Shown: positions 2,491-62,018 of the stretch, piece after piece
Position numbering within the stretch: position 1 is the first letter of the stretch
How the letters are laid out: the number at the start of each line of letters is the position of its first letter
Origin: Terebella lapidaria
Taxonomy: Eukaryota > Annelida > Polychaeta > Terebellida > Terebellidae
DNA: 64,000 bases
Direction: 5' to 3'
NCBI GenBank assembly: GCA_949152475.1
Contig: OX424561.1
Location: 3,162,001 to 3,226,000 of the forward strand
Notes under the pieces: model-generated
What the model was told of the DNA's origin: nothing
The model's database searches: none
The model's input: only the letters and a program-made list of their open reading frames with translations
Translations under genes and position numbers: made by a program

Positions 2491-3723
2491 AAAAAGTTAC
2501 TGAACAGATTTTGAGAAAATGGCCGCCAAAGTCCAAAATCAGGCATTTTTCGTCGAAAACGGCCGCCATTTTGAAAAAAATGCGAAAATCAAAAAACTAA
2601 AAAATACCTCCCTCTCGAAATATTTTTAGGCATTTTTGTGCAAAATTTCAGAAAAATTAGATCGTAAACTTTAAAGATAAAATTGTTGACGGACGACGAC
2701 GACGACGCCGGACGAGCCCAAGGGCTAAGAAAGGTTACCGGACAATACATATTTTAGATATTAGTATTTTGTCCCGTGACCTTGAAAATGAGGTCAAAGG
2801 TCAAAATCAAGGTTATCAGAATATTCGGCATATATCATTTCCTTCATATCAGCAATTGATCCCTAAGCTGTAAAATCGATAATGAGTGAGATATGAGCCA
2901 TTTTGTTCTGTGACCTTGAAAATGAGGTCAAAGGTCAAATTCATAGCAATATTTGGCATATATCATTTCCTATATGTCCACAATTGATTCCTAATCTGTA
3001 AAGTCAATAATGTGAGATATTAGCCATTTTGTCCTGTGACCTTGAAAATGAGGTCAAAGGTCAAATTCAAGGTCATCAGAATATTCGGCATATACCATTT
3101 CCTATATGTCCACAATTGATTCCTAAGCTGTAAAGTCAATAATAAGCGAGATATTAGCTATTTTGTGCTCTGACCTTGAAACTGAGGTCAGAGGTCAAAT
3201 TCAAGGTCACGAGAATATTCAGCATATATCATTCCCCATATGTCCACAATTGATCCCTAACCTGTAAAATCGATAGTAAGTGAGATATTAGTCATTTTGT
3301 CCTGTGACCTTGAAAATGAGGTCAAAGGTCAAATTCAAGTTTATCAGAATATTCGGCATATATCATTTCCTATATGTCCACAATTGATTCCTAAGCTGTA
3401 AAGTCGATAATAAGCGAGATATTACATATTTTGTGCTTTGACCTTGAAACCGAGGTCAGAGGTCAAATTCAAGGTCACAAGAATATTCAGCATATATCAT
3501 TTCCTATATGTCCATAATTGATTCCTAGTCTCTAATCTCAATATTAAGTGAGATATTAGGCTTCATGTGTCCCATTATAAAGCATGGGAAAATTTAACAT
3601 GGGAAAGTCACATCTGGGCCGAGTTTGGGCCCAAAATGGCCCACTTCGAGTGATTCAAGCGCAACGAAATTTATACATGTCACAGAAGTACATATGAGGA
3701 GTGTTATGCATCAATAAGAAAAA

Positions 3724-5200
3724 TTAGGCCAAGGGCCGAAGATAGGTTACCGGACAGTGTTTAATATTTTAGATGTTAGCCAGGTCACTGGTTGAATTCA
3801 AGGTCAAGAGAATATTCAGCATATATAACATTAAGCATATATCATGTCCACAGTTGATTGCTAAGCTGTAAATTCAATAATCAAAGAGATATTAGCAATT
3901 TTGTGCTGTGGCCTTGAAACTGAAGGGGCAAAGGTCAAATTCAAGGTCATCAAAATATTCAGTGTACATTGTATATCATTTTCTATATCATGTCCACAAT
4001 TGATTCCCAAGCCATACAGTCAATAGCGGAGCAAGATATGAGCCAGTTTGTCCTTGGACCTTGAAAATGAGGTCAGAGGTCAAATTCAAGGTCCGAGAAT
4101 ATTCAGCATATATCATTTCCTACATGTCCACAATTGATTCCTAAGCTGTAAAATCGATAATAAGTGAGATATTAGACATTTTGTCCTGTGACCTTGAAAA
4201 TGAGGTCAAAGGTCAAATTCAAGGTCATGACAATAATCTGCATATATCATTTCCTATATGTTCATAACTGATTCCTAAGCTGTAAAGTCGATAACAAGCG
4301 AGATATTAGCCATTTTGTCCTATGACCTTGAAAATGCGGTCAAAGGTCAAATTCAAGGTCATCAGAATATTCAGCATATATCATTTCCTATATGTCCACA
4401 ATTGATTCCTAAGCTGTAGAGTCGATAATAAGTGAGATATTAGCCATTTTGTCCTGTGACCTTGAAAATGAGGTCAAAGGTCAACTTCAAGGTCATGACA
4501 ATAATCTGCATATATCATTTCCTATATGTTCATAACTGATTCCTAAGCTGTAAAGTCGATAACAAGCGAGATATTAGCCATTTGTCCTATGACCTTGAAA
4601 ATGGGGTCAAAGGTCAAATTCAAGGTCATCAGAATATTCAGCATATATCATTTCCTATATGTCCACAATTGATTGCTAAGCTGTAGAGTCGATAATAAGT
4701 GAGATATCAGCCATTTTAAGCTCTGACCTTGAATTGAGGTCAGAGGTCAAATTCAAGGTCACGAGGATATTCAGCATATATCATTTCCTATATGCCCACA
4801 ATTGATTCCTAGTCTCTAATCTCAATATTAAGTGAGATATTAGGCATAATGTGTCCCATTATAAAGCATAGGAGAATTTAACATGGGAAAGTCCCATTTG
4901 GGCCGAGTTTGGGCCAAAATGGCCCTTTTCGAGCGATTCAAGCGCAACGAAATTTATAGACATCATAGGGGTACATATGAGGAGTGTTATGTATCAAAAA
5001 GAAAAAAAGTTACTGAACAGATTTTGAGAAAATGGCCACCAAAGTCCAAAATCAGGCATTTTTCGTCGAAAACGGCCGCCATTTTGAAAAAAATGCGAAA
5101 ATCAAAAAACTAAAAAATACCTCCTTCTTGAATTATTTTTAAGTATTTTTGTGCGAAATTTCAGAAGAATTCGCCCGTAAACAAAAAAGATAAAAATGTG

Positions 5201-5796: not shown

Positions 5797-7218
5797 TTAG
5801 GCCAAGGGCCAAAGATAGGTTACCGGACAATGTTTAATATTTTAGGTGTTAGCCAGGTCACTGGTTGAATTCAAGGTCAAGAGAATATTCAGCATATATA
5901 ACATTAAGCATATATCATGTCCACAGTTGATTGCTAAGCTGTAAGTTCAATAATCAGAGAGATATTAGCAATTTTATGCTGTAGCCTTGAAAATGAAGGG
6001 GTAAAGGTCAAATTCAAGGTCATCAAAATATTCAGTGTATATCATTTTCTATATCATGTATATCATGTCCACAATTGATTCCCAAGCCATACAGTCAATA
6101 GAGGAGCAAGATATGAGCCAGTTTGTCCTTGGACCTTGGAAATGAGGTCAGAGGTCAAATTCAAGGTCACGAGAAAATTCAGCATATATCATTTCCTATA
6201 TGTCCACAATTGATTCCTAAGCTGTAAAATCGATAATAAGTGAGATATTAGCCATTTTGTCCTGTGACCTTGAAAATGAGGTAAAAGGTCAAATTCAAGG
6301 TCATGACAATAATCTGCATATATCATTTCCTATATGTTCATAATTGATTGCTAAGCTGTAAAGTCGATAATAAGCGAGATATAAGCCATTTTGTCCTGTG
6401 ACCTTGAAAATGAGGTCGAAGGTCAAATTCAAGGTCATCAGAATATTCAGCATATATCATTTCCTATATGTCCACAATTGATTCCCAAGCTGTAGAGTCG
6501 ATAATAAGCGAGATATAAGCCATTTTGTGCTCTGACCTTGAAACTGAGGTCAGAGGTCAAATTCAAGGTCACGAGAATATTCAGAATATATCATTTCCTA
6601 TATGTCCACAATTGATTCCTAAGCTGTAGAGTCGATAATAAGCGAGATATAAGCCATTTTGTGCTCTGACCTTGAAAGTGAGGTCAGAGGTCAAATTCAA
6701 GGTCACGAGAATATTCAGCATATATCATTTCCTATAGGTCCACAATTGATTCCTAGTCTCTAATCTCAATATCAAGTGAGATATTAGGCATAATGTGTCC
6801 CATTATAAAGCATAGGAGAATTTAACATGGAAAAGTCCCATTTGAGCCGAGTTTGGGCCAAAATGGCCCACTTCGAGCGATTCAAGCGCAACGAAATTTA
6901 TAGACATCATAGGAGTACATATGAGGAGTGTTATTTATCAAAAAGAAAAAAAGTTACTGAACAGATTTTGAGAAAATGGCCGCCGAAGTCCAAAATCAGG
7001 CATTTTTCGTCGAAAACGGCCGCCATTTTGAAAAAAATGCGAAAATCAAAAAACTAAAAAATACCTCCTTCTTGAATTATTTTTAAGTATTTTTGTGCAA
7101 AATTTCAGAAAAATTCGCCTGTAAACAAAAAAGATAAAAATGTGGACGACGACGACGACGGACGACGACGGACGCAACGCCATGCCAATAGGTTATCGGA
7201 CCATAGGTCCGGTAACCT
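5797..7218 (+). mobile_element. Pearl-like element copy 5, complete, nested
   Basis: Left end TTAGGCCAAGGGCCAAAGAT with AGGTTACCGGAC, about seven core units to ~6,790, right-flank block, a short GAC-rich tract, and terminal hairpin 7,190-7,218. It is inserted in an A-run of copy 3. Confidence 0.85.
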
Positions 7219-10869: not shown

Positions 10870-11073
10870 TGTGAACATTATGATACATGTGTGAACATCT
10901 TGATATGCACATTATGATATTAATGATGACCTCATTCAACTGTATGCATTATGATGTTACTTAAGTACATGTGTACTGGAAGTGTTTGGTGACAGGAAGT
11001 TTCTGAGTAGCCATGTGCTAATTTGATGACATGAAGTAAAGTCTAGTTGTGGACAAAAAGAGTTGTTGTTACA
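10870..11073 (+). repeat. Copia 5' LTR
   Basis: A 204-bp terminal repeat starting TGTGAACATTATG and ending GTTGTTGTTACA. It contains short internal repeats of TGTGAACAT and ATTATGAT. It should carry the element's promoter; no clear TATA box was assigned. Confidence 0.95.
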
Positions 11074-11076
11074 ATT

Positions 11077-11094
11077 TGGTAGCAGAGCGTGGTT
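11077..11094 (+). promoter_or_regulatory. Primer binding site, initiator Met tRNA type
   Basis: TGGTAGCAGAG starts three bases after the LTR and is complementary to the 3' end of eukaryotic initiator methionine tRNA, the usual Copia primer. Pairing weakens after the first 11 bases. Confidence 0.8.
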
Positions 11095-11101
11095 GAAGAA
11101 G

Positions 11102-12418
11102 ATGGCAGTCAATTACAAGAACCCCCCAGAATTTGGAGAAACAAGTACATACGAACAGTGGAGGAATCAGCTGGAAATATGGAAGTTGATGACAGGGCTC
11201 CCTAAAGATAAACAAGCTCTAGCTGTGTCTCTGAGACTCACAGCCACCCCAGGGAAAGCAAGGGATGTAGCCCTTCAGGTTAGTGCTGCAGATCTCAATA
11301 CGGACGATGGATTGGACACACTCCTGGAGGCTCTGGATGCTGTGTTCAAGAAAGAAGACAGAGACAGTGCTTTCGAGGCTTATTCAGACTTTGAACACTT
11401 CAGGAAAACAGAAGGCAGCACCATGGCAGATTTTCTGATAGAATTCGAACACAAGTACAACAGGTGCAAGAAATTTGAGATGGAATTACCAGACGCAGTC
11501 CTGGCTTTCAAGCTTCTAGATGGTGCGAACCTAGATGTCAAAGAGCGACAGTTAGCACTGACAGCTACGAGTGATCTCACATATATAAGCATGAAATCAG
11601 CATTGAAAAGAATATTTGGGGAATCTGGCAGCACCAAAGAACCAATAACTTTGAAACAACAGTCAGCCCTTTACACACGACAGTCGAGTGACAGACACAG
11701 GTTTTCAACCGGGAATCAAAATCCAACTGATTCCAAGAAAACAAATCCACTGAATAGATATGGGAGACCAAGCAAGTGCGCAATTTGCCAAAGCATTTAT
11801 CACTGGGTGCGGGACTGTCCAGAGAGACAAGGCAACAGGAATCCAAGGGCTAGGTATGAGTCAGAGAGACAAGACAGAGGTAGACAACAGAGGTATGAAT
11901 CAGTACGTACCGCAGAGGCCACTCAAGCTGAGGCAACAGACGATTTAGAGATCTGTAATTTGACGCTATACAACAAGGAGAATCAAGTAGAATCACAAGT
12001 CAATGACATTCTGGTGGTGGAGGCCAGCGGGGCAGCAGTCCTGGACACTGCCTGCACAAAGACCGTGTGTGGAAAACAGTGGCTACAGGACTATGTGGCC
12101 AGTCTCAAGGAAAGTGATAGAGTCCAGGTGTCATCATCACCCAGCAACCAGAGATTCAAGTTTGGTGATGGAGCCATTGTGGAATCGGCTCAGAAGACAA
12201 AGATCCCAGCAAAGATTGGACAGAAAAAGTGCTACATAGAGACCGAAGTAGTGGACACAAACATACCACTCTTACTCAGCAAGCGATCACTGAAAACAGC
12301 TGGCACAATCTTGGATCTTGACAAGGACCAGGCCAAGATGCTAGGACAGAAGATAAACTTAGAGTTCACATCAACAGGACACTATTGTGTCAGTTTGCGG
12401 GATGAGGAATCGAGCTGA
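11102..12418 (+). CDS. gag: Copia Gag with zinc knuckle and protease-like end
   Basis: 438 residues from the ATG in AAGATGGCAG after the primer site; an in-frame ATG at 11,063 lies within the LTR and is unlikely to be used. The N-terminal two-thirds resembles the Copia capsid (UBN2/gag-pre type: W..WK..., FxxLxxEGxxMADFLIEFE). A CCHC knuckle (C-x2-C-x4-H-x4-C) begins at residue 226. An aspartic-protease segment follows at about residue 315, LDTACTKTVCG, with D-T-A where most retroelement proteases have D-S/T-G. The frame ends at UGA (12,416-12,418), directly followed in the same frame by pol. Confidence 0.9.
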   Translation: MAVNYKNPPEFGETSTYEQWRNQLEIWKLMTGLPKDKQALAVSLRLTATPGKARDVALQVSAADLNTDDGLDTLLEALDAVFKKEDRDSAFEAYSDFEHFRKTEGSTMADFLIEFEHKYNRCKKFEMELPDAVLAFKLLDGANLDVKERQLALTATSDLTYISMKSALKRIFGESGSTKEPITLKQQSALYTRQSSDRHRFSTGNQNPTDSKKTNPLNRYGRPSKCAICQSIYHWVRDCPERQGNRNPRARYESERQDRGRQQRYESVRTAEATQAEATDDLEICNLTLYNKENQVESQVNDILVVEASGAAVLDTACTKTVCGKQWLQDYVASLKESDRVQVSSSPSNQRFKFGDGAIVESAQKTKIPAKIGQKKCYIETEVVDTNIPLLLSKRSLKTAGTILDLDKDQAKMLGQKINLEFTSTGHYCVSLRDEESS

Positions 12419-12422
12419 CTAG
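12416..12422 (+). promoter_or_regulatory. In-frame UGA-CUAG between gag and pol, candidate readthrough site
   Basis: The stop is UGA followed by CUAG. The UGA-CUA context is an established readthrough-promoting signal in alphaviruses and in some animal mRNAs. The same frame continues open for 15 codons before the first ATG of pol and then to 15,418. A simple CGA-to-TGA mutation is the alternative. Confidence 0.55.
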
Positions 12423-15418
12423 CACAGGCAACAGAAGAAAATGAGATTCTCAGCATAACAGAAATGACAGTACTGGAACAAAAGGCCGCTATAATTAAGT
12501 TGCACAAACAGTTTGGTCATGCATCATCAGCAAAACTCTTGGGGTTAGTGAAGTGTGCTGGAGTAAAAGTCACATCAACGTTGACAAAAATTTTTGAAGA
12601 CATTGTCAATGACTGTGATGTTTTTAAGAAATTTGGTCGGGCACCACCAAAGCCCGCGACTTCACTGCCGCTAGCAAAGGAGTTCAATGAAACAGTAGCA
12701 GTTGACCTTCATGAACTCGGACCTAACCTGTGGTACTTGCACATGATTGACATCTTCACACGCTTCAGTGCAGGATGCATCATGAGAACAAAAAGGACGT
12801 CAGAGTTTGTAAAAATGTTCATTCGTCATTGGATTGGAATCTATGGACCGTGCAAAAAACTTTTGAGTGACAACGGTGGTGAATTTAACAGTGCAGAAGT
12901 CAGGGACATGGCAGAAAACTACAATATGGAGGTGAAAACGACGGCTGGGTACAGTCCTTGGAGCAATGGGATTGTTGAGCGACACAATCAGACACTGTCG
13001 GAGATCATTCGGAAAGTGAAACACGATAACAAGTGTGACTGGGATACGTCACTGTCATGGGCACTCATGGCCAAGAACTCTCTGTTGAATGTCTCTGGTT
13101 ACAGTCCGTATCAGCTGGTATTTGGCAGAAACCCAAACATGCCCTCAGTACTTACTGACAAGCTACCTGCACTGGAAGCGACAACAACGAGTGCAACAGT
13201 GGCGGAGAACATTACTGCGATGCATGCTGCACGTAAGGCTTATGCCGAAGCTGACTGTTCAGAGAGGATTCGTCGTGCTTTGCGAAAACAGACAAGAAAC
13301 AGTGACGAAACATTTGTGCATGGGGACAAAGTTTACTATAAACGGCCAGACAGTCATGAATGGAAAGGCCCAGGAGTAGTAATTGGACAAGATGGAGCTG
13401 TTGTATTCATCAGGCATGGAGGACTAGTTGTCCGAGTACATCGATCGAGACTGAGAAAAGTCGGCAGAACAGAGGAAACTGAAGTCTCCATTGAGTCAAA
13501 ACAGAAACATTGTGGGAACAGACCTGATGAACAAGGAAGCGAGCATGGACAAAGCGGTCCATCTAAAACAGGTGGAGATGAAACTGATGAGAGTGATGAG
13601 GAAATTCAGAATCCAAATGATCATAATGATAATGTGGAAATAGATGAAAACCCGACAGGTGGTGGTTTGGGACATGTGGAAGCCCCACAAGAGAAGGTTA
13701 CGAAATTTAAACCTGGGGAAAAGTTTCAGTATGTTGAACATGGAGTACGACATGCCGGAGAAGTAATCAGTAGAGCTGGGAAAGCTACTGGTGGGTACAG
13801 GAATTGGTTCAATGTGCGGTACTCGGAGCCAAACCACATGGAAGGAGTTAAAAAAGCTGTGGATATGAGTACAAAGGACATAGTGGATGCAGAGACTGCA
13901 GAAGAAAATGTGATGATTGTGGAATCATCGTTTGAAGAAGCGAAGAAGGTTGAGCTAAACAGCTGGCTTAACAACCAAGTCTATGAGGAAGTACCTGATA
14001 ATGGGGAGAAATGTATTACCACGAGATGGATATGCACAGTGAAGGACACAACAGAGGGGACAGTTCAAAAAGCAAGACTCGTAGCGCGAGGCTTTGAGGA
14101 GTTTGAGAGACATTCATTGCCAAAAGATTCTCCAACATGTAGCTCAGAGAGCTTACGCCTGATACTTGCAGTGATTGCACAACAAAACTGGATCCCTCAT
14201 TCTATGGACATAAAAACAGCATTTCTACAAGGTACACAGATAAACAGGGAGATCTACATTCGCCCTCCAAAGGAAGCAGGATCTAAAGGCAAAATCTGGA
14301 AAATGAAAAAATGTGTCTATGGTCTCTGTGATGCTTCCCTTCAGTGGTACAATAGAGTCAAAGATGTTCTTCTTGGCACTGGGGCCAAGGTCTCTGCCAT
14401 GGATCCGGCTGTGTTCTTCTGGACAAGCGAGCAACGAGAAGGAGAAACAGTCTATGGAATCCTGGCAAGTCATGTGGATGATTTCATATGGGCGGGAACT
14501 GCGGAATTTGAGCGACTCGTGATTCCTCACATCAGGAAATATTTTCGGGTTGGACGAGAGGAGGTGAAGACTTTCCGCTACGTCGGAATATCCCTGGAGA
14601 CCAGATCTGGAGACTTGTTCGTTAGTCAAGCAGACTACGTGAAAAGCCTGAACTTTATAAATGTGGACCCATCGAGAAAGTCCTCAAATGACTCTGTGAA
14701 CACTACAGAGCGAGAACAGCTTGGTTCCAAAATAGGACAAATTTTGTGGATAGCCAAACAAAGTAGACCAGATGTCATGTTCGATGCATGCTGCTTATCT
14801 GCAAACTTGAAAAATGCTATTGTCAGTGACATAAATGAAGTGAACAAGGTAATCAAACGGCTGCATTCGGACATGGTGACCTTGAAGTTTCAACAACTCG
14901 GGGACAAAACGGAGTTGAAGCTGGTGGTATTCAGTGATGCTTCACTTGGCAACTTACCAGACGGAGGTTCACAGGGTGGACATTTCATTGTGCTCATGGG
15001 AGCAAACGGACGTTTCTCGCCAATATGTTGGCAATCTCGACGGATTCGACGTGTGGTTCGAAGTTCACTAAGTGGGGAAACGTTGGCTCTTGCAGATGCT
15101 CTGGACACGGCAGTGTATCTGGCATCGATGTATGGTGAACTAACCTCAGGGACTTGCGACAGGATCACTCTACCCATCATCTGTGTGTTAGACAGCTTTC
15201 CACTGTGTCAAGCACTCAAGTCCACTAAGGCAGTGTCAGAGAAAAGACTCCGGAGAGAGATCAGTGCGATCAGAGAGATGTTGGACAACGGTCAAGTCGA
15301 GAACATTCTGTGGACTGGTAGCAAAGAACAGCTAGCAGACTGCCTTACCAAGAAAGGTGCTTCACCCTTGAAACTGTTAGAGGCACTGTCTGACGGCAAA
15401 CTCCAAATTAGACTCTAA
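12419..15418 (+). CDS. pol: Copia Pol: integrase, reverse transcriptase, RNase H
   Basis: Open for 999 codons after the gag stop; the first ATG is at 12,464. Integrase: an HHCC zinc region (H-x5-H near the start, then C-D-V-F where C-x2-C is expected), then the catalytic triad D (VDLHEL), D (LSDNGGEF) and E (NGIVERHN) with D-35-E spacing. Reverse transcriptase: TRWICTVK, KARLVARGF, SMDIKTAFLQG, KKCVYGLCDAS and the HVDDF catalytic box. RNase H: VVFSDAS, SLSGETLAL and VLDSFP carry the D-E-D acids. The only visible defect is Phe (12,623-12,625) for the second zinc cysteine of integrase. Without its own ATG context or splicing, Pol is probably made as a Gag-Pol readthrough product. Confidence 0.92.
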   Translation, partial: LAQATEENEILSITEMTVLEQKAAIIKLHKQFGHASSAKLLGLVKCAGVKVTSTLTKIFEDIVNDCDVFKKFGRAPPKPATSLPLAKEFNETVAVDLHELGPNLWYLHMIDIFTRFSAGCIMRTKRTSEFVKMFIRHWIGIYGPCKKLLSDNGGEFNSAEVRDMAENYNMEVKTTAGYSPWSNGIVERHNQTLSEIIRKVKHDNKCDWDTSLSWALMAKNSLLNVSGYSPYQLVFGRNPNMPSVLTDKLPALEATTTSATVAENITAMHAARKAYAEADCSERIRRALRKQTRNSDETFVHGDKVYYKRPDSHEWKGPGVVIGQDGAVVFIRHGGLVVRVHRSRLRKVGRTEETEVSIESKQKHCGNRPDEQGSEHGQSGPSKTGGDETDESDEEIQNPNDHNDNVEIDENPTGGGLGHVEAPQEKVTKFKPGEKFQYVEHGVRHAGEVISRAGKATGGYRNWFNVRYSEPNHMEGVKKAVDMSTKDIVDAETAEENVMIVESSFEEAKKVELNSWLNNQVYEEVPDNGEKCITTRWICTVKDTTEGTVQKARLVARGFEEFERHSLPKDSPTCSSESLRLILAVIAQQNWIPHSMDIKTAFLQGTQINREIYIRPPKEAGSKGKIWKMKKCVYGLCDASLQWYNRVKDVLLGTGAKVSAMDPAVFFWTSEQREGETVYGILASHVDDFIWAGTAEFERLVIPHIRKYFRVGREEVKTFRYVGISLETRSGDLFVSQADYVKSLNFINVDPSRKSSNDSVNTTEREQLGSKIGQILWIAKQSRPDVMFDACCLSANLKNAIVSDINEVNKVIKRLHSDMVTLKFQQLGDKTELKLVVFSDASLGNLPDGGSQGGHFIVLMGANGRFSPICWQSRRIRRVVRSSLSGETLALADALDTAVYLASMYGELTSGTCDRITLPIICVLDSFPLCQALKSTKAVSEKRLRREISAIREMLDNGQVENILWTGSKEQLADCLTKKGASPLKLLEALSDGKLQIRL

Positions 15419-22908: not shown

Positions 22909-23059
22909 CTGTAACAGTAGATGGTATTTGAGGATGCGCTGGACGGGTTTCAGCAGGTATGAGCCGAGCGGAAGGCCGTGTTGTAGCGCCATCTGCTGGT
23001 GTTTGAAGATATCGGCCTGCACCGGGTCGCACATACAGCGGGTCAGAACCTCCACCGCC
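22909..23059 (-). CDS. PLEKHG1: PLEKHG-type RhoGEF exon 5 (DH conserved region 3)
   Basis: A 151-nt exon; acceptor TCTGACAG|GGCGG, donor TTACAG|GTCAGT, leaving in phase 0. It codes AVEVLTRCM...[36 protein letters not shown] is the most conserved DH helix and forms much of the Rho-binding surface in Dbl proteins (established). Every expected residue of the motif is present, so the exchange domain looks functional. Confidence 0.95.
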
Positions 23060-23329: not shown

Positions 23330-23446
23330 CGTGGATAGTTGGTGCAGTAGTCTCCATAGACCAGGAATCCCTGGCCATGTTGGACGAAACACTGCGCCAC
23401 TTGGATCGGGTCTGAGCTACACCGCTCCAGGTACAACACAAACTCA
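23330..23446 (-). CDS. PLEKHG1: PLEKHG-type RhoGEF exon 4 (DH domain)
   Basis: A 117-nt exon; acceptor ATTTCAG|TGAGTTT, donor CCACG|GTACGAG, phase 2 on both sides. It codes EFVLYLERCSSDP...CFVQHGQGF...GDYCTNYP. The CFV...Y..YCTNYPR pattern matches the middle of the DH domain of the PLEKHG1-3 group. Confidence 0.92.
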
Positions 23447-24925: not shown

Positions 24926-25026
24926 CTGTTGAACTGGTAGATGTCCTCAATGTTACCAAAGAGTAACATGACGTCCTCATCTGGAATCAGGTGACAGTCC
25001 CTCTTCAGGAGTGTTTGCTGGTAACC
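24926..25026 (-). CDS. PLEKHG1: PLEKHG-type RhoGEF exon 3 (DH domain)
   Basis: A 101-nt exon; acceptor CTGCTGCAG|GGTTACC, donor AACAG|GTGTG, entering in phase 0 and leaving in phase 2. It codes GYQQTLLKRDCHL...LLFGNIEDIYQFN. The LFGNIxDIYxFN segment is a signature of PLEKHG1-3 DH domains and fixes both the identity and the frame of the neighbouring exons. Confidence 0.92.
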
Positions 25027-27289
25027 CTGCAGCAGAGGACGGCAACATGTCAAAATTTGTCATTGTAACACTGTAGTGATAGTTGACTCAGGTCAGTTTC
25101 ATGACAGTATAATGAAACACACACTATAGTATCAAAAACTTCCATCTATTCTTGTAAATAGTAGTGGGTAAATTTTGGTACATTTCGAGTTCCCACGGTC
25201 ACTAAATATCATGAAAATTGGAAATTAGAATAATTTGAATGTTCAATGGAAACTCAATCCCCCAACAGGATTTGCCAAATATTTGTCATGGACAGTGTAA
25301 TTCATCAGGTTTGTTTATCATAGCGGCTGCTCAGTAGCAGTTTTATTACCAGCCCCTTGGAAGGAGCTGTTTGCTGTTGGTAGAGGGCACTGTGATCAGT
25401 TGAAGGTCAGAGAAAATGAGACAAAATTTGAACTGACGGTCTACATGCAGAGTTGGAAAGTTTTTTGTTTACTTTCCTAGGTCATGACCCCACTCTAACT
25501 ATCAGCATACATGCGGTAAATAGCCGTATACTGTTGTCCAGTAACACTGTACTCCTGAGGCTTCCCCCAGTACACCTGATATGTGAAGAGGTCATTGTAG
25601 CTTTGTTTGATCAAAGCAAATTAACCATGGCCACAGCTAAATCAGTGCATGCATTTATAATGATACTGAATATTACAGTAAACTTTGATTTGAACTGAAT
25701 CCTGGAACTAATCAAATATTTGACTTTGAACAAATATGAGTATCCAGACCAAATACTGTGTGTGAAAATTTCATGCTGCAAACATACCATACATGTACAA
25801 TGTTGTTAATGCCAGGCCATGAAACTTCTGCCTTATTTAGAAACTTTCCCTGAAAAATGTACGCTGGACTATATTTTTACACAGTGAGAATTCATGTGAG
25901 CTAACACAATGTTCGTGGGCTGATTATCACATTTGGGTGCGATGGAGAAACCTTCAAGGACTTCCCATCCAAGGGAACTACTAGAAGTGTTATCACCCTC
26001 TAAAGGTCACTCAGTGCTCCCGAGTACAACACAATCAGCGGCTGTTTGTCGGCCCATCGTGGGTGCAAGGATGGACCTGTATCTGCCCTTGTTGTCTTGA
26101 TTGTATTGTGATGACATATTTTGTATTTACGCATGAAAAATATATCGGTATCTATAGATGTAGTTGCAAGTAGAACCAGTAACTTTTCAACTCAACTAGA
26201 AAATTCCCAACCCACAGAACCGACCCACAGCTTGAAGCATCATTCAAATCTTCAATTGTTGATTGAAATTTATATCCATAGCTCCAACTCATTTACATAA
26301 TTTCCATGGTGAGGATCAATTTCTGCCAATTAGGACACAATCGCGGCTGAACAGACTGGGACCTTTTGACTGTGGGGCGAGTCGTGCATTTCACCGAGTG
26401 TGAAAGAACAATATCCTCCAGTGAAATGAAAAACGAGACATGTGTAACGAGAGTGATCCCTTTGACGCGGCCAATGGCTTTCAGTCATGACTTCAAAAAC
26501 TGCTGAGGATCTGCTGATGACTGAGTAAATTGCTGACGAACTTCATGAGAAAATATTTTTGAACAATGTGGAGCAACTTGCAATATCATTTCGATATCAT
26601 ACTGACAGATAATATTCTCCTAGATTAGTTCATTTTTACAAACAGCTTTTACCCCATTCCTTCTAGCTGAACTCCTTCCCTCCCTCCTTCTCACTCTCAA
26701 CCCCCCCCCCCCCACCTACAATTATTACACTCCCACTTTGTGGCAGGTCCCATCACCCAGCACATGTATCCACGGAAACTGGACAATAGAAATCTGTCAA
26801 GTTCAGCCGTGTTCCGGAATAAATGTTCCTCGGAGCGCTCGTTGCCCTGTGCCTGCGAGATCTGCAATAATGCGCCAGAAGGCACAATGAGGTTCTAATC
26901 ACAGTCAGCAGCTGACCATGCATCACACCCAGACAGCAAGGAAGCCAAGACACTCAGAATTTCTCAATTTCCCCTTGATCAGCTGATTTATCAAATCTGT
27001 GACTGAATCAATGTGGCATTTAGTCATAATTTGCCAGTAGGCGCGGACGACAGTCAGATGGTCCAAAGGGCCTCAGTCGGCAGCCGATGATCTGCCCATT
27101 TCTTTGTTTTGAGAAATATATATCGAATATGTACATTGACCTATCAAAATGATTGTCTGTTCTATTTTCGGCCCACCTTCATTCGTTGGATACAATTATA
27201 CATGCTTACATTTATATATGTTCCCGGAAAGAGATCCCACTTTTACTATGATACCATGGGAACAACCTGACCGTCGCCTGTATAAAATC
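25027..27289 (-). other. RhoGEF intron 2, part downstream of the minisatellite
   Basis: Unique-looking intron sequence with a 13-C tract at 26,701-26,713. No exon-like frame with fitting phase was found. Confidence 0.75.
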
Positions 27290-28101
27290 CCTCCTCACCT
27301 GTATGACATCCTCCTCACCTGTATGATATCCCTCCTCACCTGTATGATATCCCTCATCACCTGTGTGATATCCCTCAACAACTGTGTGATATCCTTCCTC
27401 ACATGTATGATATCCCTCCTCACCTGTGTGATATCCCTCGTCACCTGTATGATATCTGTCCTCACCTGTATGATATCCCTCGTCACCTGTGTGATATCCT
27501 TCCTCACCTGTATATCCCTCATCACCTGTGTGATATCCCTCAACACCTGTGTGATATCCTTCCTCACATGTATGATATCCCTCCTCACCTGTGTGATATC
27601 CCTCGTCACCTGTATGATATCTGTCCTCACCTGTATGATATCCCTCGTCACCTGTGTGATATCCTTCCTCACCTGTATGATATCCCTCATCACCTGTATG
27701 ATATCCGTCCTCACCTGTATGATATCCCTCCTCACCTGTATGATATCCCCCTCACCAGTATATCCCTCGTCACCTGTGTGATATCCCTCATCACCTGTAT
27801 GATATCCCTTGTCACCTGTATATCCTTCCTCACCTGTATGATATCCCTCGTCACCTGTATGATATCCCCCTCACCTGTATATCCCTCGTCACCTGTTAAT
27901 ATCCCTCGTCACCTGTGTGATATCCCTCGTCACCTGTATGATATCCCTCGTCACCTGTGTGATATCCCCTCTCACCTGTATGATATCCATCCTCACCTGT
28001 ATGATATCCCTCATCACCTGTGTGATATCCCCCCTCACCTGTATGATATCCCCCCTCACCTGTATGATATCCCTCCTCACCTGTATGATATCCCTCCTCA
28101 C
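27290..28101 (-). repeat. 21-bp minisatellite made of the exon 2 splice donor
   Basis: About 40 tandem copies, mostly 21 bp with some of 18-20 bp. On the gene strand each copy reads GATATCATACAG followed by GTGAGG, GTGACG or GTGATG and a purine-rich spacer. The unit equals the last 15 nt of exon 2 plus the first 6 nt of its intron, so every copy carries a potential 5' splice site. The ten donors from 28,102 to 27,913 are exactly 21 nt apart; the next lies 20 nt further and breaks the frame, and an in-frame TGA follows at 27,889. Long open frames on both strands here are products of the repeat. A copy pattern around 27,391-27,540 recurs at about 27,541-27,700, implying later block duplication. 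Confidence 0.95.
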
Positions 28102-28655
28102 CTGTATGATATCCCTGAGGTCCGCGACATATTTCCTCTCAGTCTCCAGTATCTCAGCCACCACCCGCTCCAGAAGGGACACACTGCTCGAGACATCACA
28201 CAATACAGGCGTATCCATGGTAACTTTGTCTGTCCTCTCATCCACATCCTTGTAACCATGCACATGGGTGCTATGCAGATGATTATTATGTAGGTGGTTG
28301 CCATGGAGATGGTTGCCAAGCACTCTGTCCCCATGGTCATCGACCCAAGTCTCTGCTATCGTCGATCCAGCCGCCACTTTTTTCCGAGGTTGCCGTGGTA
28401 ACGAAGAGGATGACGATGATGAAGTTGAGCTGATGGATAGAGGGCGCTTTTTAGCATCAGCTTCACAGTTAGTACATTCATCTTCCACCGAGGGAGCCAC
28501 CTCCGCCATGGCAATGGGCTCTGCTGTCGCCTCGTGCTGAGGGGGTGGGGCCAGCTCCGGAGGCTTGACCACTGGTGTAGGGGCTGTTGTCGGGGGCCCG
28601 TCGCCAGGGGACATCGCTGGAGTGTCATAGAGCGACATCAAGTCCACCGACGAGC
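28102..28655 (-). CDS. PLEKHG1: PLEKHG-type RhoGEF exon 2, start of DH domain
   Basis: First exon common to all starts. The acceptor is ...TTGTTACAG|GCTCG (enters in phase 1, completing a glycine codon); the family-length donor is ATACAG|GTGAGG, phase 0. It codes 184 residues: a Pro/Ala-rich linker, a polyserine run, a histidine-rich stretch of about 20 residues built from NHLH-type repeats, and then the first DH helix (ERVVAEILETERKYVADL, continuing to RDIIQ). Joining to exon 3 gives RDIIQ-GYQQTLL, which lines up without a gap with vertebrate PLEKHG DH domains, so this donor is the ancestral one. The donor is followed directly by about 40 tandem copies of itself. Confidence 0.9.
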
Positions 28656-59782: not shown

Positions 59783-62018
59783 AGGTTACCGGACCTATGG
59801 TCCGATAACCTATTGCCGTCACGTTGCGTCCGTCGTCCGTCCATCGTCCGTCGTCCGTCGTCCGTCCACAGCTGTATCTTTAAAGTTTACAGGCGGATTT
59901 TTCTGAAATTTTGCACAAAAATGCCTAAAAATATTTCAAGAGGGGTTTTTTTTTTAGTTTTTTGATTTTCGCATTTTTCTCAAAATGGCGGCCATTTTTG
60001 ACGAAAAATGGCCAATTTTGGACTTTGGCGGCCATTTTCTCAAAAACTGTCTGATCAGTTTTGAGATATTTGTTTCAAAAGATTCCCCTTATGTACCTTT
60101 ATGATGTGTATAAGTTTTGTTGCCCTTGAATCGCCGGTCTCCGTGTGGCGGCCATTTTGAATTTTTGACGGGTCGGCCAAAAAAATTTTTTTTGCCCCAA
60201 ATCGCGTTACTATCCATTTCGGGCCATTTCTAGGCAAAAAAAAATTTTTCACCCTTTGAAAAAAATTTTGGACTTGGAAAATTTTCGGCACCTTTTTCCT
60301 TCATAATGGGAGCTGCCCGGACTGTACTCATAGAACGCTTAAAGATAGAGCTTAGATATTGGCACTTTCAAATGGAAAGTCATATATGGCGACTTGTGTG
60401 GTGACCTCGAATTTGACCTTGGATGACCTTGAAAGGTCAAAATAGCCATTTTTGGGTCGAAAAATGCCCAAATTTGCAGCTTTTCTGTCTTTTCTCGAAA
60501 ACTGTCTGATCAGTTTTGATATTTTCGTTTCAGAAGATTCCCCTTATGTACCTTTATGATGTGTATAAGTTTTGTTGCCCTTGAATCGCTGGTCTCCGTG
60601 TGGCGGCCATTTTGAATTTTTGACGGGTCGGCGAAAAAAATTTTTTTTGCCCCAAATCGCGTTACTATCCACTTCGGGCCTTTTCTAGGCAAAAAAAAAT
60701 TTTTCACCCTTTGAAAAAAATTTTGGACTTAGAAAATTTTCGGCACTTTTTTCCTTCATAATGGGAGCTGCCCGGACTGTACTCATAGAACGCTTAAAGA
60801 TAGAGCTTAGATATTGGCACTTTCAAATGGGAAGTCATATATGGCGACTTGTGTGGTGACCTTGAATTTGACCTTGGATGACCTTGAAAGGTCAAAATAG
60901 CCATTTTTGGGTCGAAAAATGCCCAAATTTGCAGCTTTTCTGTCTTTTCTCGAAAACTGTCTGATCAGTTTTGAGATTATCGTTTCAGAAGATTCCCCTT
61001 ATGTACCTTTATGATGTGTATAAGTTTTGTTGCCCTTGAATCGCTGGTCTCCGTGTGGCGGCCATTTTGAATTTTTGACGGGTCGACGAAAAAATCCATT
61101 TTGGGCCATTTCTAGGCAAAAAAAATTTCACCCTTTGAAAAAAATTTGGGACTTGGAAAATTTTCGGCACTTTTTTCCTTCATAATGGGAGCTGCCAGGA
61201 CTGTACTCATAGAATGCTTGAAGATAGAGCTTAGAAATTAGCACTTTCAAATGGGAAGTCATATATGAAGACTTGTGTGGTGACCTTGAATTTGACCTTG
61301 GATGACCTTGAAATGTCAAAACAGCCATTTTTGAGTCGAAAAATGCCCAAATTTGCACCTTGTTTGTCTTTAATCGAAAACTGTCTGATCACTTTTGAGA
61401 TTTTTATTTCAAAACATAGTAATTGGGGTTTTTGACATGATGTGTATAAATATGTATATAGTGTATAAAGTGCCTTGAATTGCTCAAAAGGCTAGAAATT
61501 TAGGCTGAATAGGCCCCAAATTTAATTTTTGGTCGTTTTCCTTCAAATTTATCTGATCAGTTTTGAGATTTTTGTTATAAAACATGCTAATACGGGTCCC
61601 TGACATTGTGTATAAAGATGGAGTGCTTTGAATTGCTTAAAAGGCCCCTTGAGTGTGTAAACTGGCCTCTACAGCCAAAAAATGTTTGTAGGTATAGCTG
61701 GAATTGGAAGTCATATACATGTATACCACATATATATGTGGCTTTTTTGGGTGACGTTGAACTTGACGTCAGATGACATTGAGTGCTATATCTCAGTGTC
61801 ACGTCCAACAAGAAATGTGTAAATTTCGTTTATAGACAAAAGACTTGTAGATAGACCTTGTATTTGTATTTTGAACATACATGAATACAAGGTTATATGC
61901 TGCACACTTAATGATGAGATTGAAGTTCACGAAGATGATTGGTTTATCTTAACGTTATATCTCACCTGTCCTGTTTCAACTAAAGTTGTCCGGTAACCTA
62001 TCTTAGCCCTTGGGCTAA
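59783..62018 (-). mobile_element. Pearl-like element copy 6, opposite orientation, long-core subtype
   Basis: Read on the minus strand it starts TTAGCCCAAGGGCTAAGAT, AGGTTACCGGAC (near 62,018-61,988) and ends with the AGGTTATCGGACC hairpin and GGTCCGGTAACCT at 59,783. Its core is about three tandem units of ~455 bp (about 60,030-61,390), each holding several AGGTCA half-sites, and a (GGAC)n microsatellite lies at about 59,833-59,872. The most diverged core sequence is at the left terminus (61,390-61,980). No transposase is coded. Confidence 0.85.

Follow-up and report, generated by a model that had tools for sequence, protein, structure and literature searches.

A 5′ splice site repeated about 40 times in a Terebella lapidaria RhoGEF gene: probably a tolerated border minisatellite, with similar arrays elsewhere in the genome

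The RhoGEF gene and its donor array

The window, a 64,000-nucleotide stretch of the Terebella lapidaria genome (assembly GCA_949152475.1, contig OX424561.1, positions 3,162,001 to 3,226,000), carries on its minus strand a gene that, judged by its domains and relatives, is a PLEKHG/GEFmeso-type RhoGEF. The hand-spliced exons matched the Pfam RhoGEF (DH) domain PF00621 (8.5e-44) followed by the PH domain PF22697 (7.3e-9), in agreement with an earlier note that had read a DH exon here from the letters alone, and the relatives (best 120 of 3,045) include animal PLEKHG1/3 and GEFmeso proteins. In a DH–PH tree of 25 sequences (the window and 24 chosen relatives), the window sequence joins two nemerteans (95/90), separate from the lancelets; on this one gene, the host would be placed among the spiralians. 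A search for an annotated protein of the species itself with the long 3′ exon found none, returning two distant matches (30% and 35% identity). The features considered below are as follows.

28102..28655, minus strand: exon 2 of the RhoGEF gene, ending ...YVADLRDIIQ at donor 1 in phase 0 (Pfam RhoGEF on the spliced domain, and relatives)
28096..28104, minus strand: donor 1, CAG/GTGAGG, the donor probably used (modal family length and gapless junction in relatives)
27,277-28,116, minus strand: 21-bp tandem array, 40.8 copies (TRF: period 21, 86% matches, score 1176)
27913..28101, minus strand: nine 21-nt units with donors 2-10, which would add 7-63 amino acids in frame
27889..27891, minus strand: TGA, the first in-frame stop if exon 2 were extended into the array
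27277..27912, minus strand: distal part of the array, in which donor 11 would cause a frameshift and donors 12-41 a premature stop
24926..25026, minus strand: exon 3 (GYQQTLLKRDCHLIPDEDVMLLFGNIEDIYQFN...), preceded by the acceptor CTGCTGCAG
23330..23446, minus strand: exon 4, DH domain
22909..23059, minus strand: exon 5, DH domain

The array unit joins AGGGATATCATACAG, the 15 nt at the 3′ end of exon 2, to GTGAGG, the 6 nt at the 5′ end of intron 2. The genuine exon 2 border is copy 1, so that the array starts exactly at the border and its remainder lies wholly on the intron side. The earlier note had described a 5′ splice site amplified about 40 times at this border in units of this 15 + 6 composition; TRF and our parse, which yielded 41 donor-like units, bear out both the amplification and the unit, and the feature stands with one limit moved, since its low end had been placed at 27,290 and the array reaches 13 bp further. 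Spacing is exactly 21 nt in the first ten donors (28,102 to 27,913), as had been claimed, and 18–21 nt later. Each copy retains its own donor or a remnant of one (GT in 39/41 units, CAG/GT in 36/41 and CAG/GTGAG in 19/41), and the decoy burden that the note foresaw is thus real in the sense that the cell has some 40 look-alike donors to deal with. The units differ in sequence and show repetition at a lag of eight units (8 of 33 pairs identical). Across the genome (762 Mb, ≤3 mismatches), the unit has 12 single matches elsewhere versus 9 for a reversed control, so the array is unique to the RhoGEF locus, far beyond chance.

Donor choice and the heptads

Comparison with the protein family points to donor 1, from which the junction reads ...LRDIIQ/GYQQ.... 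Among the best 120 of 3,045 relatives, 118 span the junction stretch in alignment (P0002 and P0110 do not); the junction is gapless in 117 and +3 in one, and GY, with which exon 3 begins, follows it in all 118. The L..LFGNI distance equals that of the donor-1 product in 103 of these relatives and departs from it by +1 in 6, by −1 in 4 and by −2 in 5. None of the 118 has a heptad insert (+7 or a multiple), which indicates that the array never entered these relatives' proteins. We infer that the first-repeat donor is the genuine one, as in an F7-like donor VNTR. Its U1 duplex energy (−11.6 kcal/mol) is common to 18/41 units, donor 1 included; because it is no stronger than 17 others, position must decide. 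Donors 2, 3, 4, 6 and 7 pair with U1 about as strongly as donor 1.

The nine distal donors that the earlier note had placed in frame before a TGA are in frame, and the TGA was found at 27,891-27,889. The nine heptads that they would add differ by 10 nonsynonymous changes versus 1 synonymous change, where 13 of 62 possible non-stop changes would be synonymous (P = 0.29, small numbers), and no protein constraint is visible among them. The 21-nt unit is moreover open in 4/6 frames, which deprives the open frame of any weight as evidence for a peptide. A 328-aa antisense reading frame with PHLYDIP repeats (27307-28290, plus strand) is a by-product of the same openness.

Donor arrays elsewhere in the genome

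Searching the genome with a pattern of three tandem CAGGTRAG octamers (gaps of 4–34 nt, plus two narrower versions) revealed, besides the window array and one duplicated copy, at least 17 distinct donor-like arrays among the first 100 matches listed for each version. Flanks were taken for all 17, and the upstream edge was reached in 16, the exception being an array on contig C12. In 11 of the 16 edge-resolved arrays the first copy is a plausible exon end, with database support for 7 of the 11 (Pfam for six, PDB for one) and an open frame plus an acceptor-like site for the other four.

L030: exon end, Pfam Neur_chan_LBD 2.9e-8
L032: exon end, Pfam EGF_CA 8.1e-11
L036: exon end, Pfam Guanylate_cyc 7e-10
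L037: exon end, Pfam DUF3512 4.5e-18
L043: exon end, ACC_central 2.8e-5 (23.0 bits versus a cut-off of 23.2; with a longer sequence 4.2e-6, 25.8 bits)
L050/L041, SMAD-like gene: exon end, MH2 4.8e-13 and PDB SMAD2/3 1.3e-28
L042: exon end, PDB otoferlin 1.8e-16, without a Pfam match
L033, L044, L047, L049: putative exon ends, open frame and acceptor-like site only

The eleven lie at the following genome positions.

C1:9678000-9679966, C1:12887966, C1:43231252, C2:22806851
C3:1739617-1742500, C3:11657023-11659900, C3:55656886-55658745, C4:4051220
C7:1200180, C7:7346336, C11:9648180

The host genes are unrelated to one another: a Cys-loop receptor, an EGF gene, a guanylate cyclase, a DUF3512 gene, a SMAD, a ferlin, an acetyl-CoA carboxylase and four for which we found no database match (the best, for L044, at 0.27), among them L047, a putative TPR gene, and L049, a putative laminin gene. 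In the fetched flanks of L031, L034, L035, L045 and L046 no exon end was seen at the array start, which for L046 lies about 30 nt inside an intron.

Copy numbers among these sibling arrays span a few to about 90 (a 31-bp unit repeated over 2.9 kb on contig C3), and the commonest unit lengths are 40, 38, 28-29, 25, ~32 (28-38), 38, 34, 37, 33-36, 31 and 29-30 nt. In 9 of the 11 the commonest length is not divisible by 3 (L044 and L049 are mixed, and single units of other lengths occur), and an in-frame stop precedes the second donor in 7 of the 11; it falls 53 nt past the border in the SMAD-like gene, 96 nt in L042 and 171 nt in L044, and in L043 none was met within the 41 nt past the border that were examined. 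In this stop analysis the acceptors were picked mechanically, and some were not the preferred choice. The unit lengths and early stops indicate that the common element is the donor and not an added peptide. In the window array, donor positions vary about as much as other unit positions (0.28 versus 0.25 bits); in the SMAD array, too, they are no better conserved; in the TPR-like array, which was found through its donors, they vary less (0.11 versus 0.26 bits elsewhere). Variability in these three arrays gave no consistent sign of selection keeping or killing array donors.

On their sequences, about a dozen genes of this genome have apparently been hit by the border-array process independently, and the presence of many donor arrays in one genome is new. 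The literature searched, with partial coverage, yielded no survey of such arrays in spiralians, to judge by titles and passages. Two arrays outside the eleven were noted. The C12 array (C12:33722824-33728400 and beyond; L038, L048 and L051) is donor-like, with 27-bp units over more than 5.5 kb, and one 32-bp donor-like array occurs twice, 5.7 kb apart, in matching copies (C7:39863847 and C7:39869552), apparently through local duplication; the first of this pair is not at an exon end in the flank seen.

As controls we took 40 isolated CAGGTRAG octamers in two sets of 20, one hand-picked from 100 matches listed, all within 3 Mb of the start of contig C1, and one consisting of every fifth of 100 matches listed, with one octamer beside the C12 array swapped for its neighbour. 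Every frame of ≥25 aa ending at the octamer was scanned (50 peptides from 30/40 loci), and the 10/40 controls without such a frame were counted as misses. None of the 40 gave a Pfam match at E ≤ 1e-4; one weak SLC35F match (0.0017) lay under its cut-off. Pfam-supported exon ends thus number 6/16 for arrays, with peptides chosen by eye, versus 0/40 for controls scanned in all frames, a not perfectly even comparison (Fisher one-sided p = 0.0002), and 5/16 versus 0/40 when arrays are held to their longest frame within 195 nt (p = 0.0011). Under that rule L030, L037, L043 and the SMAD-like gene match, as does L036, whose longest frame is roughly its whole matching peptide, and L032 (whose EGF frame differs from its longest frame), L034, L042 and L045 do not. 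Counting the weak SLC35F match gives p = 0.0014 (6/16) and 0.0056 (5/16). Several controls are related repeats (L085/L087/L089/L090; L093/L103; L070/L075 in part), leaving about 35 independent, and with 34 controls instead of 40 the values are 0.0005 and 0.002.

Genome-wide there are 32,561 CAGGTRAG octamers, fewer than the 44,478 of the reversed control. Donor triplets outnumber the reversed pattern by 764 to 383, 217 to 144 and 279 to 170 in the three pattern versions; a few long arrays dominate these counts, which were not used as a test. A random sample of 20 × 10 kb held 9 or 10 minisatellites (period 10–100, ≥5 copies), and none of the five CAGGTRAG octamers in it was clearly an exon end. 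In the acceptor control, TTTYCAGG triplets stood at 62 to 107, and 2 of the 12 acceptor-like arrays whose downstream flanks were taken, from about 29 places listed, had an exon-like start at the last copy, neither with a Pfam match.

C1:94471151 (L052): acceptor-like array, last copy maybe an exon start
C8:42113001 (L054): acceptor-like array, last copy maybe an exon start

If these two cases are true, the exon-side copy would be used at donor and acceptor ends alike, a pattern more in keeping with exon definition than with a one-way scan.

Origin and tolerance of the array

The array is most likely tolerated rather than used. The repeats of human F7 intron 7 are fewer in copy number than the window array. 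They consist of 37-bp units in a coagulation gene, and in normal splicing, according to the review, only the most upstream donor serves (PMC6627357); both are donor repeats at an exon–intron border, with upstream-only use stated for F7 and inferred here. Lancelet 'mirages', as two reports describe them, are tandem repeats across exon–intron borders with minisatellite-size units and many AG/GT copies, in Adh3 (units of 10-72 bp), globins, TnC and PGBD5, with reported somatic length instability and reportedly without disturbance of splicing (PMC3087553, citing Canestro 2002; PMC3902484 for TnC and PGBD5). The window array shares the border-spanning units of minisatellite size (21 bp) and the AG/GT copies (CAG/GT in most). 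The lancelet examples covered there are few, the globins having 3 and 6 units, whereas here there are about 40 copies and at least 11 further plausible donor-border arrays, recognised by sequence, in a host whose DH–PH sequence groups with nemerteans. In human segmental duplications, minisatellite expansion at exon–intron borders has likewise been described, with 27 intron modifications, but those cases concern human paralogues with units of about 30 bp and 4 repeats on average, and novel introns were formed (PMC2812944). The earlier note's statement that no described case was known is therefore mistaken, F7 intron 7 and the lancelet mirages being of the same kind.

We consider it probable that the array is a border minisatellite of the mirage kind, with the exon-proximal donor in use and distal use amounting to noise. 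A 21-nt segment across the border of exon 2 with intron 2 would have been duplicated in tandem, and the founder pair expanded into the intron by slippage or unequal exchange. The array would be tolerated because the spliceosome takes the copy bordering the exon, as the protein families suggest, so that all other copies would be removed with the intron. Distal donors, if used at all, would lengthen the first DH helix (2-10) or cause frameshifts and early stops (11-41).

The earlier note had preferred a switch in which regulated use of distal donors lengthens the first DH helix by one to nine heptads and tunes GEF activity. Such a switch could draw on donors 2-10, which are stop-free and in frame, five of them about equal to donor 1 in U1 pairing, but the heptad is absent from every aligned relative, its changes look unconstrained, the unit is open in most frames anyway, donor positions are not better conserved, and most of the sibling arrays are unsuited to a simple in-frame addition of peptides; we hold this reading to be highly improbable. 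Hardly more credible is an artefact of repeats collapsed or expanded in assembly: the draft assembly of one lancelet mirage was wrong (PMC3087553), but here the units differ and repeat at a lag of eight, contigs reach 100 Mb and about a dozen comparable loci exist, although the copy number may still be off. It is somewhat less remote, yet unlikely, that the array is useful unspliced, with many intronic U1 sites raising U1 occupancy and so aiding exon definition or blocking premature cleavage and polyadenylation. The retention of CAG/GTGAG in nearly half the units and the greater frequency of recognisable exon ends at donor arrays than at isolated octamers would suit it; against it, the window array varies most at +5, a donor position important for U1 pairing, and the first 202 nt of the array, when folded, showed no excess RNA structure (z −0.79).

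A reading compatible with the tolerated border minisatellite, and one to which we give a real though less than even chance, is that real donors are hotspots of tandem duplication, for instance because of structures that form co-transcriptionally where exons end; donor arrays would then be an expected by-product. The difference in Pfam-supported ends between arrays and isolated octamers favours it (p ~0.0002, or ~0.001 under the stricter rule) and is not obviously explained by neutral birth at random sites. However, arrays may simply sit in gene-rich DNA, half of the controls were drawn from the initial 3 Mb of a single contig, with several controls belonging to the same repeats, the acceptor-like arrays gave only the two unsupported exon-like starts, and if about 16,000 real CAG/GTRAG donors are assumed, they would make up half of all octamers, so that 11/16 would by this estimate be no clear excess. 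Because of the possible gene-richness and the possibly large share of real donors among octamers, given the assumption of many introns, the exon-end enrichment of donor arrays is only suggestive. More tentatively still, there may be a lineage-wide preference for minisatellite birth at real 5′ splice sites, with donor arrays in dozens of genes; array length may then differ from one individual to another and influence how efficiently splicing proceeds.

The arrays bear on an old question, namely how the spliceosome settles on a single donor when its neighbours are identical. With about a dozen natural arrays that differ in gene, phase and unit length, donor choice becomes directly testable, and if the birth bias at 5′ splice sites is true, each would be a natural experiment in which the exon-side copy is picked from many near-identical donors. 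They extend border minisatellites past lancelets and human genes, and are raw material for intron gain and a recurrent trap for gene predictors; their recurrence across the genome is the part most worth following.

The window contains other repeats and frames. At 11030-15415 on the plus strand, a pair of long frames (462 and 999 aa) may encode a retroelement polyprotein. Blocks of a 134-bp tandem repeat occupy parts of the first 7 kb (1-916, 2756-3559, 3795-4847 and 6050-6755), and a 455-bp tandem repeat of 3.2 copies lies at 59991-61411.
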